A stretch of DNA of 64,000 nucleotides from Citrus sinensis. Its lineage: Eukaryota; Streptophyta; Magnoliopsida; Sapindales; Rutaceae. Below the pieces are notes generated by a model. The model was not told the origin of the DNA. It did not search any database and saw only the letters and a program-made list of their open reading frames with translations. Both the position numbers and the translations under genes were made by a program. This document shows positions 1,618 through 60,023 of the stretch, in pieces. Location: contig NC_068562.1 in the NCBI RefSeq assembly GCF_022201045.2, positions 8,910,001 through 8,974,000 of the forward strand. Direction: 5' to 3'. Positions within the stretch are counted from its first letter, which is position 1, and each line of letters opens with the position of its first letter.

Positions 1618-2135
1618 AGCATCGCCAAAAAACTCTTCAAATAATATTTTATGGCAAATGCTATGTTACAATTAATGTAATATACACACTCAACAACAAC
1701 CACACAAATTGTGTGGGCCCATTATTTGTGTGGTTGTTGTTGAGTGTGTATGTTACATTAATTGTAACATAGGGGCTCCCATATTTTATTACTTATTTGA
1801 AAAGTCACATCAATATTTAAAATTCTAAAAGACATTCCAATTAAAATTTTTTAAATAAAAAACGATTCTCCCTCTTTAAATTTAGAGAGTTGTTTTCTTC
1901 CTCTTCAATTTATATTTTATTACTTTTCACTTAAAAAAGAGAGAGAAGTGTTTTAATTGTTTTTGACTTTTCCTTTAAAAAAATAATTATTTGATTAAAA
2001 TAATATTAACTTATTTCTATTTGAATAGTTTTTTAGAGAATACTATATTTTTTCATTCTTCTATTTGCCACATAGGTAAGCAAATAGATATTTGAATAGT
2101 AAAATTTATAGAAACTTTTGGATATGCTCTTAGAA
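1618..2135. mobile_element. Possible older TIR element hosting the 1653-1780 insertion
   Basis: The left edge (agcatcgccaaaaa, near 1618-1632) and the right edge (tttttggatatgctctta, near 2119-2135) are roughly inverted to each other. They resemble the GAGCATCTCCAA-type ends common in plant MITEs. The interior is AT-rich without an ORF. No clear target duplication was found, so the limits are uncertain. Confidence 0.3.
1653..1780. mobile_element. 128-bp foldback MITE with exact 9-bp target duplication
   Basis: Two nearly perfect inverted arms (about 1661-1709 and 1724-1772) surround a spacer of about 14 bp. The arms carry the core ctatgttacaattaatgtaa. The outermost bases are GGC at the left and CCC at the right. 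The 9 bp atattttat occur on both sides (1644-1652 and 1781-1789). A 9-bp duplication is the hallmark of Mutator-like transposition. There is no coding capacity. Confidence 0.88.
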
Positions 2136-3941
2136 TGTATCGGAAGCTTTAACGCATGCTAATTTATTTTGTTATTTAATTTACTTCTCCGAAGTACCCG
2201 TATCTTGAAAACATGAGATGGTTATTTTTTAATGTTGTTTCATAGAACGGTTTTCCAAAAACACAAAGTTTACAAGTCACTATCAATCGGATCCTTACAG
2301 CTTTCATCGTTGTTTTACAGCGACAGCTTTCTTCTGGGAGGGAAAAAGAAAAAAAAAAAAAGAGAGAGAGGCAATTCTACATACAGAAGAATCATTATCA
2401 AACGGATCGATGTGTTCATGTGGACATGTCTTCGTGCGTGCATTCTAGCAGGCACCACACATCATTTATGCTTGAACTAACTGGAGAAGCAAACACTTCC
2501 AATTATAATCTTGTCTTGTGAAAACATAAACACTTCAATTCATTTGATCTGATCCTTGTTATCCAACATTTATAACAACTAACAAGCAATATATCCAATA
2601 AAATTGGGTTGTGTGACACGTTTGTAGCTTACTTGCTACTACTTAACTTTCAAAAGCACGACACCCAAATATTTGATAAACATTTTTTTTTTTTGTTCCT
2701 TAACTTGACATTGATTTTGAGATGCTATTTAAAATCAATTTTGCTTGTATATTATTTATTGTCTGCCTCATTGTGACATCTTTCTATAATGATAATTATC
2801 TAAATAAATTTAATAAATAAATAAATAAATAAAAAGGATTGTGTGGTGTGGTACAATCATCAGAAGAACCCACCGCTTTCAATCACAATCTATTTTTAAG
2901 ATTACAATTGAATCCCAAAAGAGCTTGTAACTTTTTCATGATATCTCTTTAATCTTTTTTGTAAAAGATAGATATATGGCCAACATGCATGTTGCAAATT
3001 TTGTTCTTATTATTTGATATATTTCAATGCTTTTTCTACTATCATCTTTTTATTATAAAATGGGAAAAAAATAATAAGAACTCAATCATTAACCAATTGA
3101 AGTTCTCAAGAATTAAACCAAAAAAATATATAGTGTGTCTTTTCACACACAGACACACGCGCATATGATGGTGGTTTCAATTCGAATGATTGCTAAACAA
3201 ATTAAAACAATAATTTATCAAATAATAAATAAGATTATCATGGTGGTGGCTTGTAGCAAAAATGGGTCATTTTCAATAAATCATTTTAGGTGAAGTATCA
3301 TTATGACAATCGCAAATATCTTGTTACAGACCCAATTTTATAATAAAGTCTCATCATATATGCATAGACAAGAAAACCACACAAATTCATTCTTCTTGGA
3401 GGCATATATGTACAATTAACACAAAATTAACAACTTGAAGGAAAAGGAACTCAATCATGATATTACACCTTACCAACTACTTAATTAATTAGCTAGTTTA
3501 GCTGATTAAGCCAATAATATGCATGCATGCAAAAATAGATATTTGTTATAGGTCCTTTAATTTGTTTCAATTCCATATATACAGCTGTGCTTGCATATTT
3601 GACAAGATGAAATTTAGAAGTTTAAGATTTGATTGTATGTATAATTGCGTCAATTTGTCTAATATGTGTTGGTGGCAAGATGCATGTAACTGATCAAGAA
3701 AAGCATAGTTTTTTTTTTTTTTGGGGGATACCTAAAGGAAATTCTTCTACTAAACATTCATGCTTTCATATATTTAAAAAAAATTAATTTTATTAAATAT
3801 TGGCATTTCGTTTTACTATTTGAAAAAAATTAAAATAAAACTCCCAAGTAAAGTACTGTTACAAATAATGAGGAAAGTAATAAATTTAGATAGAAAGCAA
3901 CTTAAAACAAACTAAATTTGATCCTTGAGTATTTGATTTGA
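2136..3941. other. Gene-poor AT-rich intergenic DNA
   Basis: I see only homopolymer and short tandem AT-rich stretches, such as an aaat repeat near 2810-2833 and a tgcatgca run near 3521-3530. No exon series, RNA gene or clear transposon end was found. Confidence 0.7.
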
Positions 3942-4081
3942 GGAGAAAATTATGGTGCAACGGTGGTATTGTGCCACCGTTGCACCCAGCCGTTGGATCC
4001 CAATAGATTCATCAATTCAAATGGATCCAACGGTTGGATGCAACGGTGGCACGGTACTACCGTTACACCGTAGCCGGACCC
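3942..4081. mobile_element. 140-bp MITE, copy 1 of the ATGGTG family
   Basis: The left arm (ggtgcaacggtgg, then gtgccaccgttgcaccc) is repeated inverted at the right, around a centre near 4012. Terminal bases are GGAGAAAATTATGGTG at the left and, read inward from the right, GGGTCCGGCTACGGTG. The flanks ttgatttga (3933-3941) and tcgatttga (4082-4090) agree at 8 of 9 positions, again a Mutator-like 9-bp duplication. The two different ends match those of the element at 15762-15902, but swapped, so the two copies lie in opposite orientation. Confidence 0.8.
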
Positions 4082-4655
4082 TCGATTTGATAATCTGCTA
4101 CCACTAATTTTTCTTTTGCTTCTAGTAAATCAAAAGATAATCAGCCGCACAATTTTAAAGAAACCCCTAATTAATAATTAATTGTTCGGAGAGTCTATTT
4201 AGTTGTATATGCGACCTTGATAGAGGAAACCAAAAGAAAAATTAAAAAAAATGCAAAAGCCTTCATTAGTTAAAATGTCTAAATCCACGTGTTGAAAAGA
4301 AATTAAGTTAAAAAGGCACCCACGTACAAAAGATTGTTTATATCAAAGTCATAGGCGGCCCTTCTCCTCGCATTAGCAAAAGCTGCATCTTCAAAAAGAA
4401 TACACGTAATATTGTTGACAGAACGGCAGTCTATCAAAAGCACAATTGTTCTCTTTCTTCTTTTTCTAGATTGGGTGGTCACACTAAAAAGGAAAATCAA
4501 AAAAAAAAAAAAAAAGAAAAGGTTACCTCACCATGAAAAGCAATATCAAGAAATCTCTAATTGAAGATTTTTGTTTTTGAAACATAATTAAAGATTTTTA
4601 TTATTAATATAAAATATTTTTAAAAAAAAATCGTTTCACATTATAAAACCATGTG

Positions 4656-4728
4656 CACGCCCAGTGGGACTCGAACCCACAATCGCTTGATTAGAAGTCA
4701 AGCGCCTTATCCATTAGGCCATGGGCGC
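4656..4728 (-). tRNA. tRNA-Arg (UCU)
   Basis: On the minus strand a 73-nt cloverleaf can be drawn. The acceptor stem is GCGCCCA with TGGGCGT (first pair G-U) and the discriminator base is G. The D arm contains GGCCTAATGGATAAGGC. The anticodon stem-loop CTTGACTTCTAATCAAG has anticodon TCT, and the T loop is GGTTCGAGTCC. There is no intron and no encoded CCA. A run of T follows the 3' side on the minus strand, as expected for RNA polymerase III termination. Anticodon UCU reads Arg AGA/AGG codons. Confidence 0.96.
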
Positions 4729-6412
4729 TACTGCTTTCTTTATTGCTTATTTATATTTAATAATGGTTTTGATTCAAAGCTGCCTCTGGTATCGCGCATA
4801 ATGCATGTTTGCATCTCTTTGACTTTGATTGTTTGATCACCAGATAAAGTCTTGTGTAGGATACGCGTATCATGTCATTTATGGGATTATCGAATAAAAC
4901 ATTATAGAAAAATCTTAAAATATGTGACATAATTTTATTGATATATATAAAATTTATTTTAAGTTATTAAGGCATATGGTTAATAGTTTTCTGACTTTTC
5001 TCGGACTATAAAAAAGTCTAAACCTTGAATTGGAACACATATGTGTGTTTATGTATAGCCAAAAATTTTTAAAAATTATATATTGTGTTGTAAATTAAAA
5101 AAAGATTGTATTATTAAGAGTGTTGTTGTAATTTGTGTACATAATTCTCATATTATTTGTTACTCGTCTGGAGGTAGATACATTTATCCTCTAAAATGAA
5201 TCATATGCAAAAATTGACCCTCGTTTTTGTTAGAAAACCAAAAATAATTATACAAAATGTCATATCACAACTTCCAAAATCCTAGTAAGCCTAAAATGGA
5301 AGTCACCAATAGTCTAATTCTAGCTAATCAATTATAGTAGCTTTAGAATCACAGGCCAAGGATTAAACCATCTTAACAACCAAAACTCAGATTATATATT
5401 TTATTAATTAATAAGAATAATTTTGGATCAATTATAACATTTAATAATTAAGAGTGTCCCCATTGCAATGAAACAGCTAACTGTAAGACTTTTTATGAGA
5501 ATGATTAGAGTAATTATTCCATCATCGAACTCATAAAGGCAAGAGTATGAAGTGTAAAAGAAATTCTCAATTGCTACATTGCTACTGGTGAATAATTTGG
5601 ATTTTTGTATACAGTGAAAATTCAAAGTTTTTTTTTGTTATTTTATGGTTGGGAGTGGGATTTTTTCATTTTTTATTATTTTTTTTAAAGAATTTAAGAA
5701 TAGATGGTCAATTAAACATAACTACTTAAAAACCACTCCAATAAATCATTAATGTGAATATTTTAGATTTGCAATCCTCGAAGCTCAAAGCAGCCAAAGG
5801 CAAATTCAACAAATGGGGTCGAGTCGATTTGATTTATTCATTTGAGTCCAGATGATTTCAAATCATTACGAAGAAACTAGATTATGAATCTCACAATTTT
5901 TAATCATTAATACTCGATTGCTTCTGATTGAACATTAATGAAAGTATGCAACTCACAGGAAGCGATGAACGCATAAAGCTAAACTTGCTTTGCTCGCCGT
6001 AATCGAGAGCTGCTTTCAATTAAATCACGATTTAGCTGCGGATGGAAAAGACAAATCATTAGTTGGTAAATGATTTTTTTTATTAATAGCTATTTGAATA
6101 CATTTTGATCGTTTCCCAATGGTTTTATTGAATTTGACCGAAAAATTCAATTAATATTTAGCTAACAGATTTGATCGGCTCGGTTGGTGCATGGATTAAA
6201 TTTTTATTTGTTACCTCCCAACAAAACCAAGCACCCCGCATAATCCCCATACACTTGGATTCGGTCCATTCGGACTAGGAGAACTACACTATATAATAAA
6301 AGCTCGCCCTTTTGAATTGAATAATTAACATTTATTGATTTCACCAATATATATATAGTCATAGCTAGTGCCTAGTGGGTCATAGAAGTTATTGTGGTTG
6401 TTATTATTATTA
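4729..6412. other. AT-rich intergenic DNA
   Basis: No gene or clear repeat boundary was recognised here. Short ORFs in this stretch have no protein-like composition and no splice partners. Confidence 0.6.
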
Positions 6413-7649
6413 GGCAAATTATCAGTTATATATCATTAAATGACACTCGTATCAAACGTGTGTGAACACTTTTCAAGTGTATCACTCGTATACCTTAAGT
6501 TGACAAAACACTTATGCCGTCCACTAATCCGTTAAATTCCGTTAGAAAGTTAACATAATTGTAGCAAATTGACTATTTTGCCCTTGAAACTCAAAATGAG
6601 GTAAAAAGAAAAATTTACCCAAAAAATTAACGTAAATTTTCAATACATAATTTTTTTATTTTTTTATTAACAAATACATTTTTTATTAAAAAATAAATTA
6701 TTAATGGTACATATTATTAACAATTATCCATTAAAAATATTCATATTATACCATAAAAAATTATTAACAACATATTATTTACAAGGGATAATTTTGTCCT
6801 GCACCCAACTGTTTCAACATATTTCACCACACACCCATATGTTTCGAAAATACTCACTCCACACCCAATTCCGTTAATTTGACCGTTTATTCTAACGGTC
6901 AAAGGGCAAATTTGGAAATTCATATCCTAAATATTATTTGATGATGATAAATTAAATTTATTTGATAATTTAATTGATGAAATTATTATTAATTACCTTT
7001 AAATAAATTTTTTTAATGTAAACATTAATTATTAAATTAATATTTTATCTCATTTTATTTTTCTCTAATTCAAGATAAGGGGTATTTTGGACATTTACTT
7101 AAATTTCAAATAGCTCCGTTAAACATAACGGTCAAATTAACGGAATTGGGTGTGGAGTGAGTATTTTCGAAACATATGGGTGTGTGGCGAAAAATGTTGA
7201 AACAGTTGGGGGCAGGACAAAATTAACCCTATTTACAATTATATCTATTATACCGTAAAAATTTCCAGTTGGAGCTTGGAGGAGTAGATCTTCAAAAATT
7301 TAAGTTAAATTTTAGAGGAGTAGATTCGGTTGTAAAGTAGTTTTTTTAGCAATTATTAATAATTATTTGCTAAATAGGATGACATGTCATTTCTATCAAT
7401 ATATATCATATGACATGTCATGTTTTACTAGGTAAATAGGATGACATGTCGTTTTTTTAAAATCAAAGTTTCGTCAATCTTAAAAGACTAAATTACCCTT
7501 ATGATGCCAGCGCTTGCAAATGAAAGTTAACGAATTGGTGGACGGCATAAATGTTTTGTCAACTTAGGATATACAAGTGATACACTTAAAAAGTATTCAC
7601 ACACGTTTGATACGAGTGTCATTTAAGGGTATATAGCTGATAATTTCCC
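6413..7649. mobile_element. Mutator-like non-autonomous element, long TIRs, 1237 bp
   Basis: Terminal inverted repeats of roughly 120 bp run inward from GGCAAATTATCAG at the left (6413 to about 6536) and GGGAAATTATCAG at the right (7649 back to about 7527). They share landmarks such as aaatgacactcgtatcaaac and cttatgccgtccac. The flanks ttattatta and tcgttatta agree at 7 of 9 positions but lie in a TTA microsatellite, so the target duplication is ambiguous. There is no transposase coding region. Long TIRs without a transposase fit a MULE-type non-autonomous element. A second element (6785-7229) sits inside it. Confidence 0.82.
6785..7229. mobile_element. Nested Mutator-like element, 445 bp, exact 9-bp TSD
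   Basis: TIRs of about 115 bp begin GGGATAATTTTGTCCTGC at the left and, read from the right end inward, GGGTTAATTTTGTCCTGC. The two arms are almost identical over landmarks such as ccatatgtttcgaaaatac and ccaattccgttaatttgacc. Flanking 9-mers tatttacaa (6776-6784 and 7230-7238) are identical. The AT-rich centre has no ORF. It lies wholly within the larger element, so it inserted later. Confidence 0.9.
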
Positions 7650-9134
7650 TCGTTATTATTATTATTATTATTATTATGTAAAGTTATAAACAAAGACTAC
7701 AATTGTAAACGTCTATATATAACAAATGTAAACAAAGACTAGTATTCTTGTTATGATTATTTTATGGAAGGTGAAAACAATTAAACAAAACCAACCTCAA
7801 GTTAATTAGCAACTTGATAGATTACAAAAGAATTGACTGCGTAACTGCGGGCTATGCGGCAGAATTTTCGAACAACAGTGAGGCGGGCGATCGACACAAG
7901 GAGAAATTATGTTCAATTCAGAGCGGAACACGCAAGGGCAAGGGCGAGAGCGTCACAAATTCTACATCACATGGCTAGAAATGTTGATTACGTTTGTATG
8001 GTTAATCAGTTCATGTTTCAAACAGTAGAGACTTTTTTAGTGGATTCAAAAAACAAAATCATACAAACTCAGACCCCAAAACGATAATATTATACCGTGT
8101 AGGAGCCGATATTTTGTAATTATAAATTAGTGTGTCATTTTCGACCCACCTACAGGAGAAGTCACGTCCATAAATGTCAATTACTCAATAATGGCTCACT
8201 GTCTCCATAAAAGTAAACCCAAATTTTAGGGCTATGCTTCGTGACGGTGACTCGTGATCAACAAATTTAAGCTCAGTGGTGTGTGGTCGAGACTTAAGAG
8301 ATGATGTAGTAACAGTAACCTTCAAATCAGACGTTTTGAGTTCAAATTATGTATTAAAATGTAATAGATATGATTGATTATGGCTGATCATATGAAATGT
8401 CGAAGGTAAATACAATTTTCGTCAACTTTATTGATTTTGTTTAGGTTCCGTGCAATATGATTGGCTTTTTTTTTTCTTTTTGAAACATGATATGATTAAC
8501 AAATTGGGAAAAGAAAGGAAAAAAAAAGGCTCATTTGGGAAAAAATAATGAGCCTCCATTAAATGCTGTGGACACTCCAAAGGTTGATTGGTGGCCACAG
8601 TTCACTTCCCACATGGATCACGATGAACACAGAGCTTATGTCACTTTTGTGACGAGGTGACCTAAGGTTTGATTGATTCAAAATTTAAAATCTTCTTGTA
8701 CATTCAATCAAACAATACATTTTTTTTTTTTTGACTAAATTTGTGAAAGAATATTTTAAAATTCAACTTAATAACCCTTAAGTAAGATATCGTTTGGATA
8801 TTAGAGCTACTGAGACAGTGTTTGCCAAAAGGGTTTTGTTTTCCATGTCCTTAATTAGGAAGATGTTTTGAAGGTCATTTTCCCAATTACTTTTGTTTAT
8901 ATTTTTCTGTATAAAGTATATTTTCTCCCTAAAAAAATATAATACAATGGATTAGCCAATAGTTAACGGATACTTTTAATACAATAATCAGAAATAGTAT
9001 TGATCTCGTTATTATATGGGAAAAGAATCCTTCTTTGATTCTTTTTTTTTTTTCAATTTTTTTTCTATGAGAACGTTTTTGGAAATTACCAACTGGGGCT
9101 TATGGTCTTCAGAGGTGGAAAAGGTAACTATGTG

Positions 9135-9169
<35 letters not shown>

Positions 9170-10027
9170 GGGAATCTTCTAAGAAATCTCCTCTCCGTTG
9201 GTTATGAAAAAAAAAAAAAATTTCAAATTTCTCGGGAAAAGTAGTTTGCTTTTATTGCCATCTAAGTGTTTGCATTTTATTTAAATTTGTCGCGTTTGAT
9301 GTGCTTTTTTCTTCCTTCGTGTCGCTCTCCAGTTCAAAAACTTTGCAACGGTTCATTTTGCACATGTCATATATTTTTCATCAGCAACGTCCCAAGCTTC
9401 AGCGTATTCAGCAATTTTGTTCTCATCAATGATCGCTACAAAGGAATAATAATAATAATAATAATAATAGCAATAGTACAAAAATGATAAAGATTCTGAT
9501 ACATTAACAAAAATTACGGTAATAGCCGAGGGTTAATATGTTTTTTCCCAACTTTTTTTTTCAATCAATCAATCAATAACAGTCTCGGTCCGGTTTAACT
9601 TTTTTTTTTCAATAATTAACGGTAACCCCAATTAAGTATAACATTAATTTTGATCGGATATAGAGTATTTCTATTTGGAAGTTCTACTGAATCAGTAATT
9701 ATAAGAATAACATACAACTATAAAACAATGGTTGCAGTAATAGGTAGAGGCTGTGCTCTCTCAATATTATTATAATAATTATTACAATAATAATATTCAA
9801 CAGTTTTTTTCTTTTTTCAATCAGCAGGTTGTACAATCTGCTATCTGGCTAGTGGTTTGTACATTTTAAAAAAAAAAAAAAAAAGAGAGACTATGTATAT
9901 AATATACTAGCACTAAAGTAAAGTGTGTGAATTATATATATTACAGAGTAGCAAACAACTAATTAATTTATTAAATAAACCCAAAAAAAATTGAAAAATC
10001 ACACCTGCATTTTAATTAATTAAGCAA
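7650..10027. other. Intergenic DNA with microsatellites and a tRNA-like stretch
   Basis: A TTA repeat (about 7653-7677), a TA repeat (9137-9167) and an AAT repeat (about 9446-9468) are present. Around 8268-8350 the sequence aagctcagtggtg followed, some 70 bp on, by gagttcaaatta resembles degenerate A and B boxes of a tRNA-derived SINE; this is weak. A 77-codon ORF at 7854-8087 looks random (Arg/Ala-rich) and is not called. The last part includes the 3' flank of the ERF gene. Confidence 0.5.
9137..9167. repeat. (TA)n microsatellite
   Basis: About 15 uninterrupted TA units in intergenic DNA. Confidence 0.9.
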
Positions 10028-10759
10028 TTAATCCCACACTGAGGAAGCTTCAAAGTCGCCTGGAATCAAAGACTCGGCAGCCAAAATATGCTCTGGAAAT
10101 TCTGCAACAAAATCCTGTACGACTGGTGGGTAAATCCACCCATCGAACAAATCATCATGGATAGGAATATTCAACTCGTTGTGTGACTCTGCCGAGTCAA
10201 AATCAAAGCTTCCTTCGATGTTAGGCAACTGAACAATCTCCCCCAACTCGGCCTGCTCGTCCTGTTGAGGCTGCGCGGAAACTTCGTCGGATGTCGATGA
10301 GGAAGGATCAATGATCATGGAAGCTGCCTTGGTGGCCGCAGTTTGAATGTCCCGCGGCAGCAAAGAGACCGGCCTCGGCAGTACTTCAACAAGCTCGGGA
10401 AAGTTGAGCACGGCCGAGTCGCCTTTGATGCTGAGAGCCGCTACATCATGAGCACGTGCTGCCATTTCCGGAGTACGGAAGGTACCGAGCCAAATCCGAG
10501 ATTTTTTCCTCGGCTCGCGAATTTCGGACACCCATTTGCCCCAGCTTCTCATTCTTACTCCTCTGTAGACCGGGTGCTTGGTCCCGGACTCGCTCTCTCT
10601 TTTTCTTTTAGGCCTGGAACTTCCAGGATGGTTTTCAGAACGACATCCGGTATCACTACTGCTGCGCTGCTGCGACAGTGAGTCATTAGTGGATGAGTTA
10701 GTGCTGGCACTTTCAGCTTCTTCTGATGAAATGTTTGATAATTCTGATGATGAGGCCAT
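10028..10759 (-). CDS. DREB-type AP2/ERF transcription factor (ERF034/ERF036/TINY-like)
   Basis: Single-exon gene of 243 residues. A Ser-rich N-terminus is followed by a basic stretch PKRKRE (50-55), a likely nuclear signal, then one AP2/ERF DNA-binding domain at about 64-121 ([19 protein letters not shown]... [14 protein letters not shown]). The residues at the domain positions known as V14 and E19 are Val and Glu, typical of DREB proteins that bind DRE/CRT elements. The segment after the domain ([12 protein letters not shown], about 133-144) and the later LGEIVQLP match the A-4 (TINY/ERF034) group. The acidic C-terminus, ending in a Trp-Asp, could activate transcription. Absence of introns is normal for the family. 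In Arabidopsis the DREB gene ERF036 (At3g16280) sits next to MTV1, so position supports orthology. The exact family member cannot be fixed by eye. Confidence 0.95.
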
Positions 10760-10989
10760 TTAAATTTGTTTAAGAGAAGGAGAGAGAGGAGAGAGAGAGA
10801 GTTATGTAGAGGAAGAAGAGTAATGGGAGGGTTTTTGTAGGGAAGAGTGAAGGAGAATACGCTCCTTTAATTTCTTGTCACAGTGACGCCTAACCTACCA
10901 TTCGTTTCGTTTGTTTTCACTGTTGACAAATACTCACTAACAGAGAGTTTTAATTAAAATAAATAAATAAATAGAAAAAAAAAACCAAA

Positions 10990-11029
10990 GTGTGTGTGTG
11001 TGCGCGTGTGTGTGTGTGTGTGTGTGTGT
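10990..11029. repeat. (GT)n microsatellite
   Basis: A GT dinucleotide run interrupted by one GC-rich patch (gcgc), about 230 bp upstream of the ERF start codon. Confidence 0.9.
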
Positions 11030-11360
11030 TTAATCGTAGAAGTACAACTGTGTTTGCGGAAAAAGAACAAAAGCATAAAGCGAGATGGTACGAGTACGTG
11101 TATGTTTTAGAATGAATAATGCTGAAATTGCTTTTACATGTTTATTTAGTTCTTTTTTGCATTTAAGTGAAAGTCAAAAACACTGCTTTTTCGTTTCATA
11201 AGGAAGAAGGAAAAAGAAAAAAAAAATCCACCGATGAGTCATATCCTTATTTCAGTTCTTTTCTTTAACAAAAAAAAAAAAAAAAGGCAACCTCGTCCTT
11301 AGGAATAGAATATCTGTGGTTTGATTTTAAATATTTTTCACATTATTAACAACTTCTTTC

Positions 11361-11400
11361 GATAATGATACAACCACAAACAATATTCTTATACAAACTT
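11361..11400. mobile_element. Possible end fragment of the GAGTAATGATAC MITE family
   Basis: The stretch gataatgatacaaccacaaa followed by cttatacaaactt closely resembles the terminal 45 bp of the element at 47102-47303. No matching inverted end was found nearby, so this would be a solitary terminal relic. Confidence 0.35.
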
Positions 11401-25940: not shown

Positions 25941-25973
<33 letters not shown>

Positions 25974-37707: not shown

Positions 37708-38443
37708 TACTTAGACTAAATAAAAATATAAATTGTCAATTAGAATCCCAATTATTTATTTACTTTGTTTTGGATTGAGGGTAAATTATTTTAAATTACA
37801 ATTTTATCCTTATGTACAGAATTATAATTTGTAATTAAAAAATTAATAAAAAATATATTTGGAAAATAAAATAAATATTTTATTATATTTATAAATTAAT
37901 AATAATTACTAATATTCTTAATTATGTAAATCATAATTTTTTATTAATTTTAATTTAAATTATGTGAATAAAAATTATTAATAATAGCAACACAAATGAA
38001 ATATTATTATTGATAATATAGTACAAAATTAATATTTTTTTAGAATAAAATATTTATTATTATTAATTAAATAAATAATTAATATTTATTAAAATTAATG
38101 TTTAATATTATTAATTTAAATATAATATTTATTTATTTTATTTTATTAAATTTAATAAAATAAATATGATATAATTATTATTTTTAATAAATATGATATT
38201 ATTTATTTTATTAAATATTATTTATTTATTTTAATTTTAATTATAAGAATAAAATGAGAAGAGGGGGGAGTGGATTCCCACTCCCACCTCCCCCCATGGG
38301 AGTGAGAATCCCACTCTCCACTCTAAAATTGAGTGGGACTCACGGATTCCCACTCCTATTCTCTTTTTTTTAAGGTAAGTAAACACTGGAGTGGGAGGAA
38401 TCCACACTCCACACTCCCACTCCAGCAAGTAAACACTACCTTA
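37708..38443. mobile_element. Probable TIR element with GTGTTTACTT ends
   Basis: The left side has ggtgtttactta (about 37707-37718) and the right side aagtaaacac (38428-38437), with another inverted copy at about 38377-38386. Between them lies a very AT-rich core and a block of repeated gtgggagt/actcccac units at 38265-38425. Ends of the type TAGTGTTTAC occur in plant TIR transposons. No target duplication was recognised, so the family and limits are uncertain. Confidence 0.4.
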
Positions 38444-45781: not shown

Positions 45782-46593
45782 GAGTAATGACACATGTTTC
45801 CTCTATTTATCTCAGTAGCCTCCAATTTCACTTCACATTATTTATTTCTAAAGTCACTTTAAAAAAATAGAAAAAGTTAATTCTATTTTATTTTCTTTCT
45901 CTCACAAGAATCACCATCAATCCTCCTGTCCCCTATATATTTTCACCAACCAAATTCACCATTAAGATCACTACCACCATTTTATGTTTATTATGTTTAT
46001 CAACACATCGCCGATTACGGTATACAGTGAGTTTTTGTTGTTGGGTTTCATTAAATTTCATAATAAATTGTGAGTTTTGTTGTTATTAATTTTATTGCTT
46101 TGAATTTGTGTGATAAATAAATCAAATAAACCCATTATATTTCCATGTCAACAAAGAAAAAAATTAAAAAAAAATAATCGATTTCAATAACAACTTAAAT
46201 CACTTCAAATAGTAGAGGGTGATTTTTTTTTTAATTCTTTTTTGTTTCCTTTGTTTTATATTTGTACATATCGTTCCATTTTTACTTTCTTTTTTTTTTG
46301 TTTTAAATGGTTCGTATCCAACAATATCAAATTGATTCATTTGCAAGTTTGATATAAACCTCTTTATCTACTAGAATATTACAGGCTTTTTTTTTTTAAT
46401 CAACGTACTTTCATTTTCATAATTTGATAATCTAAGAAATTGAGAGAGAGAGAGCATGAGAGAGGGATGAAAAAAAACTTTACATCATTTTTTAATTTTT
46501 AATAAGAGTAATTTAAAAAATAGATGAGCTACTTAAAAAGTGAGGGCTGCTGAGAATAAGATAAATAGAGAAGTTTAATAAATATCACTACTC
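45782..46593. mobile_element. Mutator-like non-autonomous element, 812 bp, exact 9-bp TSD
   Basis: Left end GAGTAATGACAC and, read inward from the right, GAGTAGTGATA. The arms share further landmarks in the same order (ctctatttatct, cagtagcc / cagcagcc, then acttc / acttt), so the inverted repeat is long but degenerate. The target copies ttaattctt at 45773-45781 and 46594-46602 are identical. The interior is AT-rich and has no ORF. The ends match those of the 47102-47303 element. Confidence 0.82.
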
Positions 46594-47101: not shown

Positions 47102-47303
47102 GAGTAATGATACAGCCACAAACTCTTGTACAAACTTATTTTGTACAAACTGATGTGGCATTAATTCATTGGTTGAATTAAATATCACTTGGCCCACATA
47201 ATTTGTTTTTATTAATTTATATTTTAATTCAACCAATGAATTAATATCACATCAGTTTGTACAAAATAAGTTTGTACAAGAGTTTGTGGTTGTATCATTA
47301 CTC
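47102..47303. mobile_element. 202-bp Mutator-like MITE, exact 9-bp TSD
   Basis: TIRs of about 82 bp start GAGTAATGATAC on both sides and are nearly identical (for example ccacaaactcttgtacaaac and atgaattaat). A centre of roughly 40 bp separates them. Flanking copies ttattttaa at 47093-47101 and 47304-47312 are identical. The high arm identity suggests a relatively recent insertion. Confidence 0.92.
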
Positions 47304-48990: not shown

Positions 48991-50371
48991 TTAATAGTCA
49001 TTAGATAGGGGTGCATGTTCAGAGTGCATGAACACATTGCCATAGATGAGCCCGGCAAGGCCACCGCCAATGAGAGGGCCAACCCAGTAGATCCAGTTGT
49101 CCTGAAAGTTGCCGCTGGCAACGGCAGGCCCGAAGGAACGGGCCGGGTTCATGGAACCACCGGAGAATGGGCCGGCGGCCAGGATGTTGGCACCGACAAT
49201 GAAACCGATGGCAATGGGTGCAATGGTGCCCAATGATCCCTTCTTGGGGTCAGCTGCCGTGGCATAGACCGTGTAGACCAAACCAAATGTGATGATGATC
49301 TCCATCACAACTCCTTCAATGGCTCCAACTCCAGCAGCAACATTGTGGGTAGGAACTGCCTGTATAATCCACGTAACAAAAACCAAGTTATAATAGTTTA
49401 CGTTTTGCCCCCCCTCAAGTTTATTTACTCTTATGTCATCACCCTTTCAAGATTATGGTTCCTTTAATTGCCTTAATAAAGTAGCATTATTTTAAAAAGA
49501 ATCATGGGAACAGAAGAAAAACGTTGGGGGACCGAAAGAAAAAGTTGTGACCCTTTGCGTTTTGCCTCGGCAAGTTTTAATTTTTATGATACGACCGATC
49601 TAAATTTGTTATTTCGCCGTAATGATCCCATTCAAGTTAAATTCTGGTTCTGTCAATATGAAGACATCGCCCATTTTTAGTATGGCTCTCACCCAAGCAT
49701 TGCGCGCTTAACGATGGAATTCTGATGGGATCCGGTGACTTTACGATAAATGGGAATATTACTCTAATCAATAAAATAGTGCATTGTTTTAAAAGGAATA
49801 ACGCAACCAAAAAGATAAACGTGGAATAAATTTTGAAGCATACCAAGCCTCCAGTGACAACTTTGAGGAGGAAGCTGGCAACAATAGAGCCAAGAAGTTG
49901 GGCAATCCAGTAGAAGATGCCAGTGAGGATGGTGATTTGGCCACCAAGAGCCAATCCAAAGGTGACGGCTGGGTTGACGTGGCCACCTGAGATGTTAGCA
50001 CCAATTGCAACTGCGACAAATAGAGCAAATCCATGGCAAATAGCGATGGCTACTAGCCCTGATGGATCAAGTGCTGCATCTGCTGTCATCTTGTCTGTCA
50101 AAAACCAAAAATATATAAAAAAAAAAAATCAAATCACAGTCAATGTGTTTGCATGGCCATCTATTAGTTATCATAATTAGGGTTGGTTTATGTTACAACA
50201 AAGTTTTTTAATTATGTGCTTAAGAGCAAATGAAGATGGAAGATTACTGAAAGCAATGGCCGAGCCAACGCCGGCGAAAACAAAGAGCAAAGTTGAGATA
50301 AACTCAGCAAGATAGGCCTTGAAGGAGCCTAAGCTGAAAGAATCATCGAAGCGGCCGAAGGCAATAGCCAT
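48991..50371 (-). CDS. TIP2-1: Delta-type tonoplast intrinsic protein, aquaporin TIP2
   Basis: Three exons on the minus strand: 50248-50371, 49844-50094, 48991-49359, encoding 247 residues. Six hydrophobic segments and both NPA boxes are present: [12 protein letters not shown] (NPA at 82-84) and [13 protein letters not shown] (196-198, followed by Arg199 of the selectivity filter). The start [20 protein letters not shown] and the loop [20 protein letters not shown] are typical of the delta/TIP2 group. These channels move water, and in some members ammonia, across the vacuolar membrane. The end HAPLSNDY is family-like. At3g16240 (TIP2;1) is the Arabidopsis counterpart in the syntenic block; TIP2;2 or TIP2;3 cannot be separated by eye. 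Confidence 0.97.
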
Positions 50372-50488
50372 TGTTGATCAAGAAAGAGCTAGAGAATAGG
50401 GAAAAAAAAACTCTCTCGAGTCTTTCTTAAGAAGAAGAAGATAAGGTTTTATCTCGATCGAGCACAAAACCCTTTTCAAGGTCACATG

Positions 50489-50496
50489 TATATATA
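50489..50496 (-). promoter_or_regulatory. Candidate TATA box of TIP2
   Basis: The sequence gtatatatac about 120 bp upstream of the TIP2 start codon fits a plant TATA box given a typical 5' leader. Motif match only. Confidence 0.4.
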
Positions 50497-51600
50497 CTAC
50501 CATAAAGCCTATACAACATGACATGAATTTTATAAGATTGTTATTTAGATAGATAAGGTGCTTATTAAATACGTTCATAAGTTTCATACTGTATTATTAT
50601 TGTAGAATTGTATGTATGTTGTTGTTGTAATATAATACTGTTTACATGATCATGTAATGGGCATCAAAGGAGAATAATTATGGAAAGAGGTCAAGTATAT
50701 CCATACATGCATGTCCAATCAAAATTTCTCCCTGAAGTCCTAGCTGTCAATAACGTGCTTTAATGGAAATGTCTAGACGCAAATCAATTATAATTCCATG
50801 TGAGCCAAAGAGAGAGTGGTGAAATGAAAAAAAGGGTGATGGGGTCGTGTGAGCAATTAACCAGATATAAAAAACGGAGGTGCGGGAAATCATGACTAGC
50901 TCCATTTAATTTGGGCCACATATATGCACCGACCACGAGCAAAATTGGTCTTTCAGATTGAAAATGACTAATGAGTGGATAGGATTGTTTGGTGATCAAA
51001 ATTAGTGAGGTTAACGAATTAAGATACAATTATTTGTGTTTTGGGTTTGAATTATGAGGGAGGTGGCCGGCTAAAATGGAGATGATAGCAAGGAATCTTA
51101 AGAACCTTTTTTGTATTTTGGCTGTTGGTTTACTAAGCAAAACTTTGCAAAAGAGGTGGTTTTGATGAACTGTATCATCATTAATGATTTTAAAAATATG
51201 GGTTGTTTGATTTAATTCTTTATTGGAATTTTTCTTCCTTGTAAAGAGGTTTTGTATATCAACTATGTGATTCTATTGTCCTTTTGGGACAGGCCGAAAG
51301 GTGGGTGGCTATGAAAGGTGAATTGGCTATAATTGATACTTCAAACGGTCGATAAAATTTGGACACTTAGCCAAAAGTTTCACTGCTGGATTCTCATTTT
51401 TTGTCTTTCGAGGTTGTCATATGCCAATTTTAGTCCCAGCATCTCAACATAGACCGATATGGCAATATCTACCGAGATGAATGAGAATTTTAGTCTAAAC
51501 ACTTTGCACTCTTTATGCATTTCATACCTAATTTTGCCTCCTCTATTTACATTGATAAAATCTCCAAAATTAGGTAAGAATTTCCATTTGATGCTACTTC

Positions 51601-51626
<26 letters not shown>
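51601..51626. repeat. (AG)13 microsatellite
   Basis: A pure AG run between TIP2 and the ASCC1-like gene. Confidence 0.9.
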
Positions 51627-51631
<5 letters not shown>

Positions 51632-52477
51632 CAATGATGTTGCTTGGGAATGTTGATATGATTCAACACTATTATCTGATTTGGATGCTGCAGCAGATAA
51701 TTCTCATTTCTTTTTACCGCCCATGTTCTGTTGCCTGCTTCGTGCATTGACCATGTCCAAAATTTTCTACATAAATAAACTATAAAAGTCATAGCTGGGG
51801 TCCAATATCTTCAATTATCAAGGGACAACAAAATCATAGCAATTCCATTTTGAGGGTGACTGATAATAACTTTTCCTTAAGTTGTGGTGGGCTCACTTAG
51901 TGAAAAAGGTGTGGATTTTTTTTTTATTTCCCACTTTGCTTTTGGTTAATTAACTGGAACATGATGATGCAAGTATTTGCATCACTTCTCACTTCACTCT
52001 AATTAGGTAAAATTAAGATACATGGGTTATTTAAAAGAGTAATTGATAAAACAGAAGAGATAACAGAGAGGAGTAAAGAAAGTCTAAAAGTGCCAACCCA
52101 AGCGTCCTCATTTTCCGACAAAAGTGATTTTATTGAACTGCTTTCCTCCTTGATTTAATGTTAAGAGAGACTATTTCTCCTTAATCACTTGACGGAAGAA
52201 CATTTCAAGAAACAAATTGATTAAGAGTGCACATTGATTACAAATTTCACTTTTGAATGAGTAACACATCTTGTTTATTACTCATAATGAGCATCAAGGG
52301 TAAATATTATTCTCTCTAAACAAGTTCGAAGCCCGTTTTATTCAGTAATATCTAAGGTGCAAAGGACAAGATTTATAAATTCAGAAGCTAAAACTCAAAT
52401 TTTAAATACATCGGCTTCATTACCCTAAGAGAGTATCTACTGACTGATTCCCACTGGGAAGCTTCAACTTAAATGAG

Positions 52478-55400
52478 TCAGTCTACTTGCATGTTTTCAG
52501 GAAAAGGAATTGAAGCACAACAATGATAAAAACCACTTTCATCGTACACAAATCTTTGTGAAAGATGAGCTTCCTTAATGAGATACTCTCCCCATTCCTT
52601 GGATCCGAACTGCTTGAAAATGTCTCGTGCATCAAAGTAATCAACCCTTCTTGTTCCTTTTCTCCTGCAAAATCCAGTTAAGAATCACTTATCAGCCCAA
52701 CCAGATATAAAGAGAAACCAAATGGTTAATAACTAATAAAAGGAGGGGCAGAGTGGGGGTGGGGGAGAGGAGAGAAAAATGGAACTTGCCTTTTCTTATG
52801 CCTTATATTCATCAGAGTGGCATGCAGCTGCTATTTGGGAAACAACCAACTGTTAGCGATAATTTTCTTCAAACCAAACTGCAATCTAACAATTAAAATG
52901 AAAAGACCCAAAAGCAATGCGAAGCCACTTTGGGGGACTAAATATGGTAAGAAATAAATTTAAAATATAATCCCCTCGCAGCATATGGATAATTAAAACT
53001 GGCTTACTGTTTTGGTACAGAAAGAAGTTTAATTATCACTCTTAGAAACCGTAATTTAAATTGATTAGGTCACAGTACCCATACAAAATGAAGGCAAATT
53101 GAAGCAACATTTTTGTATTTCAGATATAATCAATATAATATTCAGATAAGGCTGAATAATAAACTATAGTCCTTCATGCAGATAAGCTAGAATGCAATCA
53201 TTCAGAAAATATTTTCATCAACCTCTATGCAATAACTCAACTCAATAGGTAGTAGAAACTAGAAAGATATAGTATCAAAATATTATTAATTCAAAATTAA
53301 GAATACATAATAACATACCAAAATCCAGAATAACACGAGATAAACATATTGGAGGCCAAAAGTGAGTATTTTAGAAGGTCATATACTGTACCTTCAACTT
53401 TTTGTTATAATCTCTGTGGAACACAAGTCCAGCTTCGTTAAATGCGTCAATGATGACTTCTACGATGGTTCAAGAAATTTCAAAAGATTCCATTGAATAA
53501 AATTAACAATTAAATTTAATGAAATGATGTAATATTGTTTCATTTTAATTATAAGTGAAGTGCACAGTGGAGCAAAAATTGATGAAACAAAGGCAATCAG
53601 GATACGACATGCATGGAGAAGTCGATCACCATCGCCAATTTCTTCCACAGGCGCATAGAGTATACGAGCTTTATCCTTGGAACCTCTCATTAAATCCTGA
53701 AAACACATAAGGTCAATCATAAACAAGTAACATTATAAGAAACATAAGTGGCTTCCTCCCTTAACCCTCTTGAAGAAAGCAGCTAAGATGCACAATGTAG
53801 ATAAAAGACAGTTCCACACACTGATCCTAGTCTCTCTCTTGACAGAAGATCATACAATCCCATGCCATCATTAAAATGCTCAAAGCAAATTATGCATAGT
53901 GATTAGAAACTTTGAAGATTAAGGACTCATAGATTAATACAGTCAGATAGCACCTCTAACACCTCATACTCAATAAGCATTAAGCACTTAAAAAATTCTA
54001 CAAGCTGCATCCAAAATGGAATACAATCTTACCAGTCCCTTCAGTCTTATAAAGAGAGGACGGTTGTCCAAGGCATCCATCACCTTTGAGGAAATACTCT
54101 GGAGAAAACACAGGAAATTAGACTATCAAGAATCCCACTATTGACTAATAAATATATAATTTAATAGAATTTACCTTCAAGACATTGGTAGCTGCATTAA
54201 CTCGGTCTTTGTTCCACAACTTCAACATCAATACAGTTAAGTGAAATGTTTTTGGTTTAATAAATATGGATTTGTCAATTCCCAAGTCTGTTTGAAATCA
54301 CAAACAGTGAGATTTTTTGTCAGTCGAAGAAAGAGAAAGAACTGATGTCATTGACAAGTACTAATGCAAATGATCTTCAATGAATTTGAAGGAAGACAAT
54401 ATTTACATATGTGAATAAATCCCATCACAAACATGCAACATTTGCACCTGCAAATCACATCGTGTGTGCCTTTGATTCAATGAAAAGAGAAGCTACCAAT
54501 AAACTGAAAATTCTACCTTATTACTCTCTCAGTATAACCATTCTATTTGGGCATATATGAATATCTATATCCACTTCCACAGATTAACTGTAGATTCTAC
54601 ATACCACAAAAAGGATTGTGCAGATTTAAAGCATTAATGCATCACAAAATACAATGGTTCTCACCAGATGAAGTAGAAGGCCTGGATGCTTTAGCTTCAT
54701 AGCCAACAATAGGTATGCTTGTTCTATCCACTTTAACACGTTCACTGTTGTCACCTATGTTAAGTTCAACTGCAACTTTATGTTCTTGGTCTACCTGTTG
54801 CTCCTTTTCTTCACTGTCAGAAGCATCTTCATTTGATTTGCTACCCACATTCTCATCTAGGCATACATCAGTAATTCCCAATATGGTGTTTTGAAAATTA
54901 ACAAGCTTGTCAACCAATTCCGGATGTACAGCCAATGGAAGAGATACAAAGTGAGAGTAGTCAAGACTTGGACTTTCGACTGCCTGTGATACAAGAGAAG
55001 TGTTAAGATATCGTTGATAGCAAGATATCAAAGAGGAAGAAACAATAATAAGTAGGACTTACATAGGAAAGCAAAATAAGTAAAATAATCACAGGCTCTA
55101 TATATTATGAAATAGTTCTTAATAAGTTTATGTTAAACAATGGGAAAAAATTCCTAACAAGAAGTTCAGAGAACCTTTGGAATAATTGAGTAGCTGACAA
55201 AAGTAATAACGGGATTCTTCTATTACCAGTATAATTTTTATTTTTTTTTGCATGATAAACAACAGCTAAGGCATTACTGACCCTAGCTACCCATCCCTCT
55301 CCATTATATAATTTTTCACAGGCATGGCCCAGTTCAATACTGACAAAAAGTGTGCGAAAGAAAAGGTTGACCAGTAAACTAGTACTTGAGTTTTTTCAGC

Positions 55401-58015
55401 AACAAATAATATACACCACACCGTTACAATTTTAATAAACCATAAAGATGTGTCACTAACCTCAGCAATTATAGCTTGTATCTTTTCTGAAGCTTTAGCT
55501 ACACTATCTGTTGAATTGCCTTCAATGACTGCAACAAAAGTAAAAAATACAATACAATAGCATACAGATAACAATCAGATTCCCTAGAAACAGAGTGAAA
55601 ATTTTTCAAATTAGAATACCTGAAACTCAAAATGTTGTAATATATTGTGAAAAATTGTTTAAATAACATCATATTAACCAGATTTAAATTAATTATCAAA
55701 GACCAAGACAACTTACTGATAGAGTCCTCCTTTTTGGATGATGGCAATATAATCTTAACTCCCATCTCCTTTTCAAATTTTTTCTGCGTAGATCCTCTGG
55801 AAGAGGAAGATTGAAGGAATAAGGAACCTACATGTTATTTGAGTCTTAAAAGAGGTTTAGATGCAGAATTTCTTACTCTTTTCCTTTAATAAAACGAATT
55901 ACAGAAGCACCGACCTGCATATCAAGCACAGACAGTGAGATCAAATCTATGAACTTTGGTTTTAACATTACCCTATACATGGTCTTCACAATAACCTTTT
56001 CTATTATGCTAATTGTTTAAAGACATGCTGAATTAAGCAAAGACAACATCTAGCAGATTCAGCAGCCATTTTAACCAAGCAAGCATGTCTTGGTAAAAAC
56101 ATCTTATAGATAAATAGTAAATACATGGAAATGGTTTCCTAGAAGATCTCTAAAAGCATCTGGTTCATCTGTACTAAGCCAGTTAAGCCCAACAAAAATA
56201 GTATAACAGCAGGGAAAGGGCCAACTGAATTATACTCAAGAGGAATAATGAGAAAATCCAGCCATTGAGCAAATGGGTCTCATTTTGAGGCTTATTACTG
56301 ACAGACCAATTTTTTTGCCCCTTTTTTCCAAAACCTAATAATTAAAGTAATACCTCAACTGAAAGTGAATGCCTTTCTGCTGAAGGCACTGGCTCTCCTT
56401 CCAAAGTTTCATCCTTGATGTCATCCAGCGAGGCACTAGAACTCAGAGTCAAGTCAGTTCCTTCATTCACTGCTTCAGCAACCTCCACACCCAGTTGAGC
56501 ATCTGAAACATTGCTTGATATACTGCAGTGCATTTCTTGAATTTGACTTCCATCTTCCGAAACATCCTTTACCAAGCTTTCTAAAAATTGACATCAAAGG
56601 TCCCATCAGCAACATCAAATGTTACTAAACCAACAAAAATCGCATTATTTCTGTTTGAGAGTGAAATACAAAATTCAGTTTCAATCTCTACAAAAAATTA
56701 AAACAAAAAATCAACTGTTAGAAATAAAATATGATATCTACAATGTGACCAGTGTACATTAATATAAAAGGCCAATCCACAATCAGCAGAACACCATCCA
56801 ATGTTGCCAAAGGAGATAAATATTGTATAGTGATAATCAGAAACTATTAAAATGACAGGGTATTTATAGCAATTATCGATTATGAGTTAAGAGTCAATGC
56901 TTTGAACTTAGGTCATATCTGAAAATCTGAAAACTGTTTTTCCGGACAAAAAGCGAGGAGAAAAAAAAGACTGACAAGCAAAGGAAGAATGAAATATGAG
57001 AGGAAAAAGAAACCGTTTCCAGTTTAAGAATCAAGAAATGTGTCACCAGCTTATAGGTATTTTATCATTTAAGGTCCACAATCAAGCTAGTTTGTTTGCA
57101 TCTGCACCGTGTAGCATTTCTATGACCATTAGACAAGGATTAGCAAACAAAAGAATCCAACAAATGATCCATCTGTGATAGCAAACAGTATCATAGGTCA
57201 TGTTGATAAAGACGAAAAAAGAAAGAATAAAACCAAAGACCTTCATTGACACTGGCTTGAGTAGACACAGGTCTCCACACAGGGTTAATTATTTTCTGCT
57301 TCTTGTCCCCGTACACAGCTCCCTGATTATCTCTTGCTCCACCCATTTTCCAGTCACGGCTTAAACTATAATAAGAACAGCCTCCCTGTCATGAGAGCAG
57401 AACAACAAGCAAATGGTTCTAAATCTCCAATTCAGATGCTTACAAGCAATAGTAATAAGACTGTACAAATTAAAACAATTATCTAGGAGAACTGAAAAGA
57501 TTTTTTTTTTTGGTCATTTTTGAAAAAAAAAAAGGATTCTAGAAATTAAAGTACTAAAAAAGAGCAAATATAATCAAATAGTCTCTTTTCTGTCAAGCTT
57601 TCAACAAATCAAAGAGCAAACATGGCCAAACAGCAAAAAACTAGAAAAGGGTACTCAATAATCTATATAAATGATAGTATCATTTTTCACAAAATAAGGT
57701 AATATAACTTCATAAAGTATCATATAAGCAATACATCCATTAACAATTAGCAAAAAGAAATAAGCATATTTGAAACCTGAGAGTGATCAAGCGGCCTCGA
57801 GTTCACATAAGTACTCGTAAACTTCAGCAAACGGTCAACCCGGTCAAGTCTGCATAGTGCAAGCATAGTAAGCTTAAATTCAATAACCAGTAATACCCAG
57901 AAAAGAAAAATACAGATATATAATAGTTTACTTTTGGTTTATTAGATGCGTTTAAAGAAACTGGACAGAACTGATGAGTGTACCTGAAGTGAGCCCTGCA
58001 ACTGCAAGTTAACAT
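52478..58015 (-). CDS. ASCC1-like protein: KH domain plus AKAP7/LigT 2H phosphoesterase domain
   Basis: Fourteen exons on the minus strand: 57984-58015, 57777-57849, 57241-57385, 56354-56580, 55877-55914, 55717-55796, 55461-55528, 54665-54983, 54175-54287, 54033-54098, 53606-53696, 53392-53459, 52790-52827, 52478-52664, about 514 residues. After an acidic N-terminal region comes a KH RNA-binding domain at about 160-221 (VIRFIKGKEGSTQKKFEKEM, with GKEG as the GXXG loop). From about 225 onward is the 2H/LigT fold, with the HxT pair HLT (343-345, FHLTVLML) and HAT (442-444, LHATLMNIRH) that forms the active site of 2'-5' RNA ligase-like phosphoesterases. This order is that of human ASCC1, a subunit of the ASC-1 complex linked to transcription and alkylation repair. 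The Arabidopsis neighbour of TIP2;1 (At3g16230) is of this type. The penultimate intron uses a GC donor. Confidence 0.93.
52665..52789 (-). other. GC-AG intron in the ASCC1-like gene
   Basis: The donor is AAAAG followed by GCAAGT, the classic strong GC-donor consensus, and the acceptor is tttgcag. The join gives HKK-R-RKGTRRVDYFD in frame. Retaining the intron would bring in unrelated sequence. Confidence 0.85.
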
Positions 58016-59178
58016 TCGAGCCCCCTCCCCTGCACGCTGTCAGAAAGTGTGAGAAGGATAATTGTTTCACACGTGTGCAAGTGATGACTCATTACAGGAG
58101 AATGACTAATTTATTATTTTATTTACTTACTTGCGGCCATTTAAGTGGGCTTCTGTTTAATTTGGGCAGCCCATTTATTAACATTTTAATCAAACACTCA
58201 TTATTGAGAGAACAACTCTTTGATGAATATAAGTTATATTATTACATAATTTAACCATGTCCTTATTTTAAATCGTGAGTTAACATAATATAACTAATTG
58301 AATAATTAATCGTGTTAGAAATAGGTTGAGTGTCAAGCACTTCAATAAATCTCAAAACTAAATAAAATTAATAAATAGATTATACAAATCCAATATGTTT
58401 TTGTTGTAATATCATTTCGTGTCACTAATTTGTGTTGCAGTGGTGAGTTTTGTGACGAAATATCAATCATAATTTTTAATAAAAAAATTCTTTTCAGTTT
58501 TTCATTTTATCATTCGATACAGTGCTAATTTACTTTCTATGATTCTTATGTACCTTTCTTAATTCTTTCAATCTAATATTATTGGACAAAAACAGAAATT
58601 TAAAGCAGTAACAAAATGACTTTTCATCAATAAAAAGCCTTTAATTTATTGGTTAATTAGATAACAATATTTTAGCCAAGTAATCTATGCGTTAATTAAA
58701 TTAAAAAATCGAAACCCCTTTACATATTTTATATATCACTATTTGGTCTTATAATTTGTCTCCCGCTTACTCAATTTTCATTATACATCAAATAATGTGT
58801 TACAATTTATGTAAAATTAATTTAATGAAAATTTAAGATCGATTCAAGGAATTTGAAAAACAAAAAAAAAAAGAAAAGAATGAAACTCTTGCCTTTTCTT
58901 TTTTTTTAAAAAAAAAAATTAATTTTCCATATAGGAATTAATGCAGAACCCGGAAGCCCTCGGGATTATCTTATACCATACTTGACAAAGAAGTGAACAG
59001 AAAAAGACTCATTCAAAGACAAAGAAATGAAGCCATGTAGCCTCTATTGAAGAGTACCCAAAGAAACTTGAACAATAAACAAAGAACACCTTAAGAGACA
59101 AAATTCTTCTCGTACGTTAATTATATATCTCCCTCAACATGCAAGACGCCTTGTTGCGGCACTGCAACTTGATCAGCC
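58016..59178. other. Intergenic interval upstream of the ASCC1-like gene
   Basis: AT-rich with poly-A/T runs near 58862-58920. The first 100 bp hold a C-rich patch (ccccctcccctg) that may belong to the ASCC1-like 5' leader. No other gene was recognised. Confidence 0.55.
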
Positions 59179-59415
59179 ATGGTGTGCCTTGGAGTTTTCT
59201 TCGGGTGCAGACGTGCCCATCGTTCAATCAACGACTACGTTGTATCAGCTTTGGCGATCATTGCCATTCTTTCCGGTTTGCGTTTACTTTATTACTCCAT
59301 TTGTCGTTTGTCGAAGAAGGAGAATTCTGATCGTAATGAAGATTCAAATGATGGATTGGAATTTGGAAATGCGCCAGCGCTAGCCAGTGGCTCAAGCCGT
59401 GAAATGCAAAAGTAA
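59179..59415 (+). CDS. Possible small single-pass membrane protein, unrecognised
   Basis: An ORF of 78 residues starts in a good plant context (gccATGgtg). A short basic N-terminus with Cys (CRRAHRS) is followed by a hydrophobic segment YVVSALAIIAILSGLRLLYY at about 20-39, then a basic CRLSKK and an acidic, Ser/Asn-rich tail ending EMQK. This order (hydrophobic helix, positive flank, polar tail) is credible for a small membrane or membrane-anchored protein, but I know no family for it. The only support is composition, so it may be a chance ORF. It lies between the divergent ASCC1-like gene and a MITE at 59902. Confidence 0.4.
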   Translation: MVCLGVFFGCRRAHRSINDYVVSALAIIAILSGLRLLYYSICRLSKKENSDRNEDSNDGLEFGNAPALASGSSREMQK

Positions 59416-59901
59416 TTGTGTTTAATTCCTATATGGGCGTATGAAATTGTATGCTTGGTAACAACAGCATGTGTTTCTCTTTCATTTGAGGCAAAATTAT
59501 TTAGAAAAAAGTGAATTAATTCTCCTGGTCAGTACTTGAGCATATGTAGATACCTGTATTCTCAACTGTGTGAGATGGATTATAATTATTATTCTGTTAA
59601 TTTATTATTTTTCAGGTTTTGCGGGTTCAGGATAAAGATCCAGTACAATTCCAGAATATGCATACAATTTCTAATTAGGTAGTATGAGTGAAGGATTAAA
59701 AATATTGATTATTAGTCTTAAAAATACACGGTTCAGTCAGTATGTGACTTTCACTCATCCAAGAAGCAATTTTGCTGCTTCATTTTATAACACTGCAGAG
59801 AACAAACTTGAAGAAGAAAAGCTCTCTCAAATCTACCTCACAAAGTCCACTGTCGATCAGTTAAACTTTATGAAGCTCCGTTGACAAAACCATAATAATA
59901 A

Positions 59902-60023
59902 GGATCCCGTTATTTTACGTTTAACGTAACGTACATCCACACACAGCAACAATTTTCGTGATAGAGTCCACAATTGTTGTTGTGTGTGGCGTACGTTACG
60001 TTAAACGTAAAGTAGCACCAGCC
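59902..60023. mobile_element. 122-bp foldback MITE, exact 9-bp TSD
   Basis: Inverted arms at about 59913-59954 and 59972-60012 share tttacgtttaacgtaacgta and ccacacac. Ends begin GG and close in CC (GGATCCCG... and ...CACCAGCC). Target copies taataataa at 59893-59901 and 60024-60032 are identical. This gives the third terminal type with a 9-bp duplication. No coding capacity. Confidence 0.87.

Follow-up and report, generated by a model that had tools for sequence, protein, structure and literature searches.

The question raised by a 64,000-nucleotide stretch of the Citrus sinensis genome (contig C7, positions 8910001-8974000; hereafter the window) is how seven inverted-repeat elements, designated A to G (Table 1) and for the most part with unrelated terminal inverted repeats (TIRs), each came to lie between the copies of a duplicated 9-mer. 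Our answer, to which we attach a probability of about 0.92, is that all seven are non-autonomous transposons of the Mutator superfamily, i.e. miniature inverted-repeat transposable elements (MITEs) together with larger relatives of 783 bp (C) and 812 bp (E), that they belong to at least six TIR lineages, and that they were moved in trans by the transposase of Mutator-like elements (MULEs).

The initial annotation of the window had described exact 9-mers around A, D, E, F and G and weaker duplications around B and C, and all of these are present in the sequence as described; the left tip of C, given there as GGR, reads GGC. It had also proposed a genome-wide tabulation of the flanking 9-mers as a possible refutation. 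The genome (299.7 Mb, 11 contigs) was searched with each whole element, or for C with its left arm, and the best 40 or so candidates were scored out of 1322 for F, 288 for A, 283 for B, 185 for D, 90 for G and 442 for C, as well as all 29 for E. Flanks were then inspected, window copies included, for 30 copies of F (three of them in one tandem array), 30 of A, 21 of B (the 20 best others plus the window copy) and 21 of G (20 mostly full-length others plus the window copy), and additionally for 10 other copies of C, picked because both ends matched, and 17 other fetched copies of D.

An exact 9-bp duplication was found in 95 of these 129 copies, while in a control in which the left flank of one copy was compared with the right flank of another it was found in 11 of 2942 cases. 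Length 9 is the clear peak in each of the six families tabulated, with exact duplications in 24/30 copies of F (including two of the three in the tandem array), 26/30 of A, 12/21 of B, 15/21 of G (one of these sites lying in a microsatellite), 3/10 of C and 15/17 of D; six further copies (two of F, two of A, one of C and one of D) have an exact duplication of 10 bp. As for E, a 737-bp relative at C7:11140291-11141027 is flanked by the 9-bp duplication CCAAATAAA, and the other six of eight further loci scanned gave no convincing end pair. The copies lie dispersed in the genome. Most of those inspected for A, B, D, F and G carry 9-bp duplications, with which C and E are compatible, and the tabulation thus favours the 9-bp rule in the sampled copies.

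The most direct evidence comes from the nesting of D inside C. In the window, the 9-mer tatttacaa stands on both sides of D, whereas in all five C paralogues without D that were fetched (39 other C copies were scored) it is present once, at the position of D. The single 9-mer in the empty paralogues, as opposed to the two flanking D, is direct evidence that 9 bp were duplicated at insertion, and the length shown by the empty site, which the initial annotation had named as a further way to refute its proposal, is exactly nine. The 9-bp counts, the 10-bp copies and the empty site all fall within the 9-11 bp of the Mutator superfamily.

The targets, too, have a common signature. When 88 exact sites from A, B, D, F and G are pooled, an 11-bp block stands out that consists of the duplication and its two adjoining bases: its positions (0 to 10) are 85-93% A/T, or 7-15% G+C, whereas the G+C content outside it is close to the local background of 31%. 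T at position 1 or A at position 9 was found at 131 of 192 ends (96 sites), the corresponding share among A/T-rich control 9-mers being 45%; in individual families, it was found at 31/46 ends for F, 33/52 for A, 22/28 for G, 25/32 for D and 12/24 for B. Control 9-mers have an A+T content of 68%; that of the targets reaches 97% for F and 92% for D, with 88% for both A and G and 81% for B. With the 9-bp rule across the inspected copies and the empty site of D, this signature upholds the original assignment to the Mutator class; duplication length and target preference also suggest that the families were mobilised by one class of transposase.

A plausible sequence of events can be outlined. A MULE transposase supplied in trans would pair both ends and cut the element out, a staggered cut with a 9-bp offset would be made within an 11-bp A/T-rich stretch (W|T....A|W being preferred in the pooled sites), and the duplication would result from filling of the gaps. 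It may be the inner TIR that the transposase binds; the freedom of the outer tips to diverge would then be accounted for.

Several observations weigh against the Mutator assignment and need to be set beside it. An exact 9-bp match is lacking in 34 of the 129 copies; six of these have exactly 10 bp, and B, C and G together account for 22, of which 12 are 9-mers with a single mismatch. The outermost 8-9 bases at the two ends of A, B and G are not inverted copies of each other, which is atypical of classical TIR-MULEs. The edge preference of B, taken alone, is indistinguishable from that of the A/T-rich control, and target composition varies among families, F and B being the extremes. Finally, among the matches listed, no autonomous MULE with the ends of any of the seven was found.

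Some of these points would also be expected if different families had been moved by different classes of transposase, the 9-bp rule being a coincidence of several systems. The TIRs of most families are indeed unrelated, no partner appeared among the matches listed, and target composition and, for B, edge preference are not uniform. We nevertheless regard such a coincidence as very unlikely, considering that the duplication length is the same and that the targets of A, B, D, F and G are all richer in A+T than the control. To the best of our knowledge, no other plant superfamily makes 9-11 bp duplications. Duplications of this length are general in MULEs (PMC4334395).

The diversity of the ends was assessed by comparing TIR arms against 300 shuffles, C, D and F being represented by the left arm only. 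Between A and G, all four arm comparisons beat every one of the 300 shuffles. For D and G, 3/300 shuffles were as good and the matching stretch lies away from the D tip, so that the similarity was taken as chance; no further family pair showed significant arm similarity in this comparison. E and F have a 9-nt tip in common, while their arms are without significant similarity. Only A and G clearly share TIR sequence, which leaves at least six TIR lineages instead of the minimum of three terminal families given in the initial annotation; its 'GG..CC foldbacks' are not one family, B falling outside A/G.

The dissimilar tips are themselves a recurrent feature. In the window copy of A they read GGCAAATG and GGGAGCCC, and the TIR proper starts about 9 nt inward. 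Allowing one change, the tips of A are constant, with GGCAAATGC in 30/30 copies and GGGAG(C/T)CCC at the opposite end, likewise in 30/30. The two tip types are found again in B and G, though less uniformly, and an alternative form of the right tip exists in G. Hairpin folding goes well beyond that of shuffles in the left arm of B (z -6.6) and in that of F (z -5.3), the latter carrying two repeats which contain TTGTACAA. The left arms of A, G, D and C fold no better than shuffles (z -0.5 to -1.1), and the idea that every arm is a hairpin was consequently rejected as a general rule.

The search for an autonomous partner was based on the MULE transposase domain PF10551, for which all 150 scored matches, the best 150 of 899 candidates, were above the cut-off. 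Such domains are therefore numerous in the genome, which speaks for the Mutator reading. These 150 located domains were compared with 174 sampled places from A, C, D, E and F, and two of the places have a domain less than 15 kb away. One is a place of F, 6.2 kb away, which by our estimate is about the chance level. The other is a complete D MITE, flanked by a 9-bp duplication of its own, that lies 2.2 kb from a domain in a 749-aa open frame. Among 100 of the 204 places matching D tips with at most three mismatches, read by eye, no inverted pair stood at the spacing of an autonomous element, except where two full D copies lie close together (three such pairs, with outer ends 1.8-3.9 kb apart); 31 checked D tips are about 63 kb or more from any of the 150 located MULE domains.

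The seven elements might instead derive from CitMule, the known active MULE of citrus. The ends of a candidate were walked with 20-30 bp probes in two of four equal-scoring MULE copies (126.6 bits), yielding a 5061-bp element at C1:21231878-21236938 and C5:26649740-26654800, with the 9-bp duplications TAAAATTAT and AATATATAT; the two copies are identical in all internal probes. Its left end has 18 matches in the genome, one at C3:6790111. Because this left-end copy is within 5 kb of the position published for CitMule_1 (chromosome 3, 6785326, in clementine; PMC4334395 Table 1), we consider the walked element to be of the CitMule type, and it appears to be a recently mobile form shorter than the published 6.9-kb CitMule. 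Like the seven, CitMule is described as having 9-bp A/T-rich duplications, short and degenerate terminal inverted repeats and recent movement, and its sites, with preferred A/T triplets at both edges, come close to the 11-bp footprint of the present families; it differs from them in encoding a transposase, in its length and in its unrelated ends (PMC4334395). The walked element offers some encouragement to a derivation from CitMule, having recent copies, 9-bp A/T-rich duplications and dissimilar tips (CAGCACCGATATTCAGC and GGAAAATGAGATTCTTC) outside a common inner repeat, as in A, B and G. Yet its ends match those of none of the seven families (in the best case, 12/300 shuffles were as good), and its left end, with 18 matches, is rarer than the MITE families, for which there are 90 to 1322 candidates; this makes a derivation from CitMule highly improbable.

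Least credible of all is an identity as MITEs of the hAT or another type, with 8-bp duplications, the length made by hAT transposons, that seem to be 9 bp long through A/T-rich sequence: one extra matching base is common in such targets, and a length-8 match does occur in 5/129 copies (partly homopolymers or simple repeats), but these stand against 95/129 for length 9, which peaks in all six tabulated families and is seen in the empty site of D, and the alignments with other copies by which the element ends are defined leave no room for sliding the extra base.

Preferring, then, non-autonomous Mutator transposons moved in trans, we list the seven elements below. Complementarity of the inverted arms is 86-93% in A, B, C, D and F and 80% in G, while E has diverged. 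The lengths of A, B, D, F and G (122-445 bp) are those of MITEs, and their copy numbers are high (90 to 1322 candidates, with many of the scored places of G partial). C lies at the upper limit of length, its span being made of 783 bp of its own sequence, the nested D and the duplicated 9-mer of D; E is longer still and of low copy number. No open reading frame (ORF) of 150 aa lies within the elements according to the ORF list of the window, and no further coding search was made.

Table 1. Inverted-repeat elements of the window, with their ends and target site duplications (TSDs).
Element	Position	Strand	Length, ends and arms	TSD
Family A MITE	1653..1780	+	128 bp	atattttat, at 1644-1652 and 1781-1789
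Family B MITE	3942..4081	+	140 bp; dissimilar tips GGAGAAAA / GGGTCCGG	8/9
Family C element	6413..7649	+	arms 6413-6549 / 7513-7649	7/9, within TTA microsatellite
Family D MITE	6785..7229	+	445 bp; nested inside C	tatttacaa
Family E element	45782..46593	+	812 bp; tips GAGTAATGA / GAGTAGTGA; arms diverged	ttaattctt
Family F MITE	47102..47303	+	202 bp; tips GAGTAATGATAC	ttattttaa
Family G MITE	59902..60023	+	122 bp; dissimilar tips GGATCCCG / GGCTGGTG; TIR homologous to A	taataataa

How readily such structures arise by chance was examined by scanning the window for inverted arms with a 12-bp exact seed, at least 22 of the outer 40 bp matching ungapped, G...C tips and an exact 9-bp direct repeat. 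The scan returned four places (A, D, F and G), all of them already in the initial annotation, and none in 40 dinucleotide-preserving shuffles; E escapes it, probably through its diverged and offset arms. A similar scan with duplication lengths from 4 to 13 gave the same four at 9 bp and otherwise mostly matches inside stems, where a palindrome yields a false direct repeat, together with a microsatellite echo of G at length 6 and one weak 4-bp match at 8006-8495 (eight of the nine length-4 rows being listed).

Microsatellite targeting by C was rejected, as none of the 10 other inspected C copies is surrounded by a dinucleotide or trinucleotide microsatellite; the position of the window copy in TTA repeats is probably incidental.

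The families appear to differ in age. In D, 12 of the 40 scored copies, that of the window among them, share the top score and show no difference over 445 bp, which indicates that this family moved recently. Identity to the query among the best-scored copies is 97-100% in A, mostly 94-97% in F, 90-94% in C and 81-91% in B (the last two excluding the query), making D the youngest of the families compared. Judging from such identities, D and A would have amplified recently, F earlier, and B, C and G earlier still.

In addition, three pairs of D copies in opposite orientation have starts 1.4-3.4 kb apart (C5:31499363/31501033, C3:51456191/51457549 and C2:2759451/2762885). The paired copies are identical to the query, except for 98% and 100% identity in the pair on C2. 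Each copy has its own target duplication (one of 10 bp with one mismatch) and the flanks differ, and the paired copies are therefore separate insertions. For 40 random places, we estimate that chance would give about 0.02 pairs less than 4 kb apart, a figure that a regional insertion bias would raise; the close pairs reflect either re-insertion nearby or a hot spot common to both copies. Among 40 places each of A and C, no two are within 10 kb of each other, and the pairs of this kind in F are all tandem or nested copies.

It is tempting to go further and suppose that families with unrelated TIRs (A/G, B, D and F) were cross-mobilised by a single MULE, tolerant of divergent ends or reading structure, and that D is a second presently mobile Mutator MITE of citrus which re-lands nearby; in this extended form, we consider the proposal unlikely.

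The kind of element is a known one, since 82 of the 110 MITE families reported in citrus are of the Mutator type (PMC6466647). Like the seven, these citrus DTM MITEs are short, have TIRs and reach high copy numbers, with duplications of 9-10 bp in the family described; one of them, DTM63, was judged active and no autonomous partner was found for it, and in the excerpts considered here no transposase is tied to the citrus Mutator MITE families (PMC6466647). The ends of DTM63, GGACTTG...CAGGTCC (PMC6466647), occur in none of the seven when tips are compared by eye. The pineapple Ac-mMITEs (PMC8449440) and the SaTar elements of guayule, rice and citrus (PMC5907723), both associated with microsatellites, are likewise non-autonomous and of the Mutator type, with 9/10-bp duplications outside microsatellites, and the former have GA...TC tips as in E and F; the lack of di- or trinucleotide microsatellites around the other inspected C copies sets C apart from such microsatellite-associated MITEs (PMC8449440, PMC5907723). 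Muta1 of Aedes aegypti resembles the present families in its 8-9 bp duplications, its structured TIRs with subterminal repeats and its identical recent copies, but it is autonomous, was tested in yeast, is reported to show no apparent target sequence preference and has another TIR structure (PMC5225508).

Possible novelties are the recent burst of D, the inverted pairs that it forms at close range and the occurrence of one 11-bp footprint in families with unrelated TIRs, none of which was seen in the open-licence literature searched, as far as the excerpts go. With its 12 identical copies, clean duplications and empty site, family D is a good handle on the missing transposase and on recent variation, and the footprint offers an easy way to test whether one enzyme served several families.

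Some unusual arrangements of F were also observed. At C7:17198239-17198979, three full copies and one partial copy form a head-to-tail array with a period of 211 bp; this is the length of the 202-bp element and a single duplication of 9 bp (TATCTAAAA, in one case TGTCTAAAA), so that the two would seem to have been amplified jointly. At C5:23786975-23787348, an F copy lies within a diverged F copy with the 9-bp duplication attttatta, and at C8:5040347-5040751 two tandem copies are 2 bp apart, with no evident outside duplication.

With regard to the rest of the window, positions 37864-38245 are A/T-rich with many overlapping inverted repeats. Aquaporin-type (MIP) exons lie on the minus strand at 48994-50128, E and F being 1.7-3.2 kb past their 3' end, and an AP2-domain frame (10031-10759) and a WD40 frame (60892-61626) adjoin other elements.

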